From: Halanaerobium saccharolyticum subsp. saccharolyticum DSM 6643
GTDB taxonomy: Bacteria; Bacillota; Halanaerobiia; Halanaerobiales; Halanaerobiaceae
Reading direction: 5' to 3'
NCBI RefSeq assembly: GCF_000350165.1
Contig: NZ_CAUI01000005.1
Coordinates: 124,001-188,000 of the forward strand
DNA length: 64,000 nucleotides
This document shows, piece by piece, positions 49,612 through 51,141 of this stretch (positions within the stretch are counted from its first letter, which is position 1; each line of letters starts with the position of its first letter). Under the pieces are notes generated by a model, which was not told the DNA's origin, did not search any database, and saw nothing but the letters and a program-made list of their open reading frames with translations. Made by a program: the position numbers and the translations under genes.

Positions 49612-49655
49612 AAATATAAAGACCTTTAATATAATAATTAAAGGTCTTTATATTT
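49612..49655. terminator. Bidirectional terminator between cobO and folD
   Basis: Arms 49612-49630 and 49637-49655 form a 19-bp stem (AAAGACCTTTAAT core) with a 6-nt loop. A-rich and T-rich ends allow use by the convergent genes on both strands. Confidence 0.92.
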
Positions 49656-49663
49656 TTATTAAA

Positions 49664-50506
49664 TTAAATTGTTATTCCATGCAGGATTTTAAATGATTTA
49701 ACTATATTGCGCATTAAAATCTGATTGGTTACTGTTCCGACACCACCTGGAACAGGAGTAATTGCTTTCACCTTTTCGGCAGCTGAATCAAAATCGACAT
49801 CTCCTAGTAACTTACCATCAATAAAGTTAGTCCCTACATCAATGATTATAGAATTTTCATTTAACATTGTCCCTTTTATCATTTCTGCGCTTCCAACTGC
49901 TGCTATAACAATATCAGCTTGTTTTAATTCCCATTCTAAATCTTTAGTTCGAGAATGGCACATTGTTACAGTAGCGTGTTTTTGCTGCAGCAAAATGGAA
50001 ACAGGTTTACCAACAATATTGCTTCTGCCAACAACAACTGCTCGCTGACCCTTGATTGGAATATCATAATAATCTAAGATTTCCATGCAGGCTTCAGCTG
50101 TGGCAGGATTTAATGTTTCAAGACCAACAAAAAGTTTGCCTAAAGAAGCAGAAGTAATTCCTTCAACATCTTTTTGGGGGTTAATCATCTCTAAACTGTC
50201 CTTTAAATTTTTGGGAAGTGGCTGTTGGACCATTATTGAAGTTATTTGAGGATCTTGATTTGCTTTTTTTAATATTTCTTTAAATTTACCAGGTTCTTCT
50301 ATAAACTGCTGATATTCAAATTCAATTCCGATATTTTTGCAATTTTTTTCTATTCTTTGAGCATAGGCTTTGCTTGCCTCATCTTCTCCATACTGTAATA
50401 CAACTAAATGAGCTGCTTTACCTGTTTTTTCTTTTAATTTTTTCACTTCTTCAATCAGATTATTTTTTATCTTTTCTGCTATTATTTTACCATTTAATTT
50501 TTTCAT
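49664..50506 (-). CDS. folD: Methylenetetrahydrofolate dehydrogenase FolD with altered cyclohydrolase site
   Basis: The 280-aa protein has the FolD fold: MVQQPLPKN near residues 92-100, GRSNIVGKPVSILL near 160-173, and the end PVPGGVGTVTNQILMRN. Normal FolD both oxidises 5,10-methylene-THF and hydrolyses methenyl-THF. Here the active-site Tyr48 is kept, but the catalytic lysine four residues later is Ile52 (KAYAQRIEKNC), and the aspartate of the KDVDG motif is Glu115 (KDVEG). In the human enzyme mutants of that lysine lose cyclohydrolase activity, so this one is probably a dehydrogenase only. The cyclohydrolase would be supplied by fchA, 44 nt upstream in the same operon. GTAGGAGAG precedes the start. 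Confidence 0.93.
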   Translation of the reverse strand: MKKLNGKIIAEKIKNNLIEEVKKLKEKTGKAAHLVVLQYGEDEASKAYAQRIEKNCKNIGIEFEYQQFIEEPGKFKEILKKANQDPQITSIMVQQPLPKNLKDSLEMINPQKDVEGITSASLGKLFVGLETLNPATAEACMEILDYYDIPIKGQRAVVVGRSNIVGKPVSILLQQKHATVTMCHSRTKDLEWELKQADIVIAAVGSAEMIKGTMLNENSIIIDVGTNFIDGKLLGDVDFDSAAEKVKAITPVPGGVGTVTNQILMRNIVKSFKILHGITI

Positions 50507-50550
50507 AAATCTACTCTCCTACTTTTAGATGTGTTATCGAAAAATTTAAA

Positions 50551-51141
50551 TTATTTATTAGCTAGTTCAATAATTTCTTCTTTGAGGCGTGAACTTTCAT
50601 TTTTTAATTTTAAATATTCACTTTTAATATTTTCCTTATATTCCTGATCATCTAAGCTTTTAAGGTTTATTTTAATATTTGCTATTGCACTACCAACTGC
50701 TGCATCACCTATATAGGCTGCTACCTCAAAATCACTTGCCAGCATTCTATTTCCAATTTCACTAATTTCTAGACTGAGGCGCATTAATCTAACTGCCTTT
50801 TTGGTCATATCCATTGAAAATTCTACAGCATCTTGACAGACTGCTTTAACTTTGTTTTTGTCTCCAGCTTTATAGCTGTCTAAGATATCTCCCAGAATTT
50901 TACTGTCTTTGTCAATCATTAAAAGCATTTCTTTTTTTAATTCTTCACTTTCAACAAGAATTTCTTGGGCTTCAGTTTCAACATTAGCATATTTTTCTTT
51001 ACCTATCGTTAAATTTGCTATGAAACTTATAACTGCAGCATTTAAAGCTCCACTTAAGGCTGCTGCACTGCCGCCACCAGGAATTGAGTTGCTTGAGCTT
51101 AAATCATTCAAGAATTCTTCGATAGTCTTTTGAGCATACAT
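50551..51141 (-). CDS. fchA: Methenyltetrahydrofolate cyclohydrolase / formiminotetrahydrofolate cyclodeaminase family
   Basis: The 196-aa, all-helical protein belongs to the cyclodeaminase/cyclohydrolase (FTCD C-terminal, FchA) family. The signature SIPGGGSAAALSGALNAAVISF is at residues about 19-40, with MIDKDSKILGDIL near 76-88 and AAYIGDAAVGSAIANIKIN near 141-159. FchA converts 5,10-methenyl-THF to 10-formyl-THF; the related cyclodeaminase acts on formimino-THF. It is first of two genes, before folD, and the altered FolD favours the cyclohydrolase reading. No histidine or glycine/purine degradation genes are near to support the alternative. Confidence 0.85.
   Translation of the reverse strand: MYAQKTIEEFLNDLSSSNSIPGGGSAAALSGALNAAVISFIANLTIGKEKYANVETEAQEILVESEELKKEMLLMIDKDSKILGDILDSYKAGDKNKVKAVCQDAVEFSMDMTKKAVRLMRLSLEISEIGNRMLASDFEVAAYIGDAAVGSAIANIKINLKSLDDQEYKENIKSEYLKLKNESSRLKEEIIELANK

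Follow-up and report, generated by a model that had tools for sequence, protein, structure and literature searches.

A FolD protein without the catalytic lysine and an adjoining predicted FchA-like cyclohydrolase in Halanaerobium saccharolyticum

The fchA-folD locus

The window analysed here is a stretch of 64,000 nucleotides from Halanaerobium saccharolyticum subsp. saccharolyticum DSM 6643, and all coordinates refer to it. Two co-oriented genes lie on its minus strand: fchA (50551 to 51141, an ORF of 196 aa), predicted to encode an FTCD_C-family methenyltetrahydrofolate (methenyl-THF) cyclohydrolase, and, downstream of a 44 bp spacer (50507 to 50550, minus strand), folD (49664 to 50506, 280 aa), predicted to encode a monofunctional methylenetetrahydrofolate dehydrogenase. 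The interval separating folD from the convergent cobA/cobO genes holds, immediately past the stop codon of folD, a terminator-like hairpin of 19 pairs (49612 to 49655, minus strand), called by its match to a consensus for which approximately one such match is expected by chance. The two genes are presumably carried on one transcript, as their arrangement suggests. No RNA element was found upstream of fchA, and a single sub-threshold match elsewhere is ascribed to chance. The genome contains one gene each for FolD, FTCD_C and Fhs, and its nearest relatives are H. saccharolyticum strains (protein identity 84-86%).

Both FolD domains were detected with Pfam above their gathering scores (PF00763, 90 bits; PF02882, 204 bits). 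Alignment to the FolD of E. coli K-12 paired Y48 with Y50, I52 with K54, Q94 with Q98 and E115 with D121, which confirmed the Tyr48, Ile52 and Glu115 read in a preliminary description of this DNA; the FchA-type gene that it placed next to folD was also found, on the same strand and with a PF04961 domain. The bifunctional E. coli enzyme belongs to the same family (35% identity) and shares the tyrosine, the glutamine and the nucleotide-site motifs, but has Lys54 and Asp121 where the Halanaerobium protein has Ile52 and Glu115. The Tyr-x-x-x-Lys motif of bifunctional FolD is therefore absent (YAQRI, with Ile52 replacing the lysine), and the folate-binding aspartate is a glutamate. Lys54, equivalent to E. 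coli Lys56, is retained, the NAD(P) site and the TPVPGGVG signature are present, and the conserved positions 153-168 and 223-257 match. Halanaerobial FolD retains the canonical invariant residues, the nucleotide site included, except at positions 52 and 115 and at some sites with hydrophobic or small residues. Since identity to solved FolDs is 35-40%, the fold was regarded as settled.

The PF04961 domain of FchA scored 160 bits, above the gathering score. The NCBIfam FchA model was the sole NCBIfam match to this protein, but at 132 bits against an equivalog cut-off of 275, and for this reason the protein was filed as FTCD_C-family and FchA-like. Its conserved positions are retained (PGGG at 21-24, Lys48, Asp79, Ser136-Asp137 and Asn159). 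The cyclodeaminase of histidine degradation (FTCD_C) belongs to the same Pfam family, and its genes sit beside formiminotransferase and hut genes; in a tree of FchA proteins the window FchA may group with folD- or fhs-linked FchA (support 91/92, on a long branch), and most hut-type copies fall outside the clade that holds it. As the residues of FolD and FchA are otherwise retained, the two genes represent a conserved pair and not decay.

Distribution of the pair and of the FolD residues

Every FolD of 14 Halanaerobial species, 13 from one family (f1, three genera) and one, G015, from another, has Ile52, Gln94 and Glu115, and fchA lies directly upstream of folD in 13 of the 14. Ile52 and Glu115 were identical in 35/35 fchA-adjacent Halanaerobial loci (duplicates counted, 14 species in all), whereas Lys52 and Asp115 are usual in canonical FolDs, so that neither chance nor sequencing error explains them; a frameshift or misreading as the source of the residue changes was ruled out by their fixation in the 14 species. 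Halanaerobiaceae have no canonical FolD. In the remaining families of the same order and class, all 24 FolDs read (L082-L105) have Gln94 and Asp115, 23 of them have Lys52 (the exception, L104, has Gln52), and fchA is next to folD at none of these 24 loci. The fchA-folD pair is an old inherited arrangement that is not peculiar to this genome and, because it replaces canonical FolD throughout the Halanaerobiaceae, it is at least as old as the ancestor of that family.

One of the Halanaerobiaceae (G012, locus L142; 96% complete) has fchA-folD, but Fhs was not found in it, and the pair may thus be the sole de novo route to 10-formyl-THF there. The single-contig Halanaerobium genome G008 (L147, L283) encodes an Ile52/Glu115 FolD and has lost the folD-adjacent fchA, its only FTCD_C gene lying in a hutU-FTCD_C-formiminotransferase-hutI cluster. 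As G008 has Fhs, 10-formyl-THF can come from formate in this strain. Its FolD branch was longer than those of its closest sisters in a quick tree of 103 rows.

A wider sample of 199 Bacillota genomes was drawn, and FolD residues could be read in 195. When Lys/Gln/Asp was taken as canonical, 120 genomes had a canonical FolD and 75 had only a non-canonical one. In none of the 120 was fchA found beside folD. An FTCD_C gene was present in 73/75 of the only-non-canonical genomes as against 44/120 of the canonical ones, where it lay elsewhere than folD and, where context was read, about half of the time beside hut genes. Presence of FTCD_C anywhere in the genome was rejected as a predictor on account of these 44.

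The full Lys and Gln catalytic pair occurs in 0/48 Bacillota FolDs that adjoin fchA. In 26 of the 48 the lysine is lost, its place being taken by Ala, Ile, Leu or Val; the other 22 keep it and have Glu instead of Gln. The rule therefore becomes loss of Lys or Gln, and not of Lys, and the simpler rule that an adjacent fchA means a lost lysine was rejected. Among the best 30 FTCD_C loci of Actinomycetota, 20 adjoin folD and the other 10 lie beside formiminotransferase; all 20 fchA-adjacent FolDs have lost both residues, so that 0/68 in the two phyla together keep both. The expectation in the preliminary description that lysine loss would track fchA was thus borne out for the catalytic pair, but not for lysine by itself, as 22/48 keep it, Lys-less Glu115 FolDs occur without fchA, and G008 has Ile52 without an adjacent fchA. 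An intact lysine is found in 46% of the adjacent-fchA cases in Bacillota, which is not most of them, but is close.

The order fchA-folD is found in the Lys-lost Clostridia and the Halanaerobiaceae; the group that keeps Lys but has Glu for Gln, together with its relatives with Leu52, shows the order folD-fchA. The clostridial fchA-folD class has Ala52, Phe, Leu or Met in place of Gln94, and Asp115 kept. The large Lys-kept Glu94 class in folD-fchA order has the motif MVELPL (L177, L201, L202, L208, L209, L236-L251, L253), and several of the Lys-kept Glu94 genomes have FTCD_C genes beside hut-type neighbours.

The Lys-less Glu115 FolDs of genomes without FTCD_C usually adjoin a canonical FolD or share the genome with one. 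Paralogues that combine Gln52 or Ile52 with Gln, His or Asn at 94 and with Glu115 were read at L215, L219, L223-L228, L232, L233, L235, L330, L344 and L350; a canonical folD in tandem or a nusB-like neighbour is frequent at these loci, and their host genomes are mostly without FTCD_C. Such paralogues might take part in mixed dimers or act as dehydrogenases only. One genome (G188; L224, L228 and L235) has three FolDs, none of them with the catalytic lysine, and an FTCD_C gene was not found in it.

A probable two-gene split of the folate step

In our judgement fchA-folD is very probably a two-gene split of the step from methylene-THF to 10-formyl-THF, which in Halanaerobiaceae replaces the two-function FolD. 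With its NAD(P)-binding half retained, FolD would oxidize 5,10-methylene-THF to 5,10-methenyl-THF and, without the catalytic lysine, would carry out little or no methenyl-THF hydrolysis, whereas FchA would hydrolyse methenyl-THF to 10-formyl-THF. The preliminary description had likewise proposed that a two-function enzyme was split into separate proteins. The absence of the full catalytic pair from all 48 and all 20 fchA-adjacent FolDs and the reported monofunctional relatives favour this; the variant is, however, fixed family-wide and not special to this genome. The split may be 'clean' and the lost activity 'redundant'. Points against the split are that some non-canonical FolDs coexist with only a histidine-degradation FTCD_C gene, as in G008, that Lys-less Glu115 paralogues are found where fchA is missing, that the retained Lys54 might substitute, and that the lysine is also credited with a part in the dehydrogenase reaction (PMC3368264).

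The main alternative, which we consider unlikely, is that the lysine was lost first in a Glu115-type, dehydrogenase-only FolD paralogue in a cell that obtained 10-formyl-THF from Fhs, and that fchA joined it only afterwards or adjoins it by coincidence. Ile52 or Gln52 with Glu115 does occur in paralogues of FTCD_C-free genomes, some of them beside a canonical FolD, and fhs is present in Halanaerobium. Phylogeny bears on both sides. The 103-row quick tree of FolD was set aside because constrained trees scored better, and a smaller, careful tree of 52 rows with the three trait columns left out was used. In this tree Halanaerobial FolD pairs, without support (79/49), with three fchA-free Ile52-Gln94-Glu115 FolDs, and a single origin of all Glu115 FolDs was not rejected (p-AU 0.187), both as this alternative would have it. 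Against it, Halanaerobial FolD groups with fchA-partnered clades, first with the Ala52 class together with the small fchA-free Ile52/Glu115 group (96/92) and then with the Lys-kept Glu94 class (91/96), although the Halanaerobial branches are long (more than 1 change per site) and make the placement unsure. A grouping of the Halanaerobial and Ala52 FolDs alone was also not rejected (p 0.269). The FchA partners fall into the same three clades as the FolDs (91/92), which would fit old co-inheritance with the same uncertainty from long branches, and Halanaerobiaceae hold no canonical FolD.

The matching trees fit one old fchA-folD association that may have been followed by differing active-site changes, and FchA may have been present before the lysine was lost. 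The survey tree has only 4 changes in the non-canonical state, and with so few independent changes a paired comparative test had no power. A more tentative extension of the split, somewhat short of an even chance in our view, is that FchA-partnered FolDs lose the cyclohydrolase by at least three routes: loss of Lys with a hydrophobe in place of Gln (Clostridia, Actinomycetota); retention of Lys with Glu in place of Gln; and, in Halanaerobiaceae, loss of Lys combined with an intact Gln and an Asp-to-Glu change. The Asp-to-Glu change would offset the absent lysine by moving the folate to a position that still permits hydride transfer.

It is improbable that this FolD is still two-functional, with another residue such as Lys54 substituting and FchA only adding capacity. 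Lys54 and Gln94 are indeed kept, and 44 genomes have both a canonical FolD and an FTCD_C gene at another locus, but 0/68 fchA-adjacent FolDs keep both Lys and Gln, and a study of Clostridium perfringens is said to have reported a monofunctional FolD dehydrogenase in that species. Less probable still is that the substrate of FolD is a different folate or a pterin, with Ile52 and Glu115 as marks of the change, or that the protein is inactive; the change of Asp115 to Glu is unusual, the aspartate being called invariant in PMC6443876, but nearly all other signature residues are kept, including the nucleotide site and TPVPGGVG, and the genome encodes no other FolD.

Relation to known enzymes

In the human enzyme Lys56 and Gln100 act together, Lys56 may pass a proton in the cyclohydrolase step, and it is said to aid the dehydrogenase reaction too (PMC3368264). 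Asp125 binds the pterin and is termed invariant (PMC6443876). The division of labour between FolD and FchA is already known. No earlier report of this combination of residues in Halanaerobial FolD, of its fixation or of a 'Lys or Gln' rule was found in the literature covered, which excludes most subscription journals. FolD is labelled 'bifunctional' across databases, and a rule on the presence of Lys and Gln would allow FolDs that depend on a separate FchA to be recognized by sequence. Such a rule would be useful in metabolic modelling of fermenters and acetogens and in the choice of enzymes for formate-assimilation pathways. The residue classes also provide natural separation-of-function variants of an active site that catalyses two steps and has been well studied.

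FolD, FchA and Fhs of C. perfringens are the subject of a study listed as reference 20 in PMC7219735 (Aluri et al. 2016, Microbiology 162:145); this species, like Halanaerobium, is reported to have a FolD-family dehydrogenase and a separate FTCD_C-type cyclohydrolase in one genome. The clostridial fchA-folD class read in this survey differs from Halanaerobium in having Ala52, Phe/Leu/Met94 and Asp115 against Ile52, Gln94 and Glu115. The NADP-dependent methylene-THF dehydrogenase of Peptostreptococcus productus, now Blautia producta, is called monofunctional in a mention of Wohlfarth (1991) in PMC6443876. Blautia FolDs are, as in Halanaerobium, encoded beside fchA and without the lysine, but belong to the Ala52 class, those read having Ala52/Phe94/Asp115. 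Yeast MTD1 (1EDZ), a FolD-family NAD-dependent dehydrogenase reported as monofunctional, is very distant from Halanaerobium FolD (a match of E 2e-11 that covers part of the chain).
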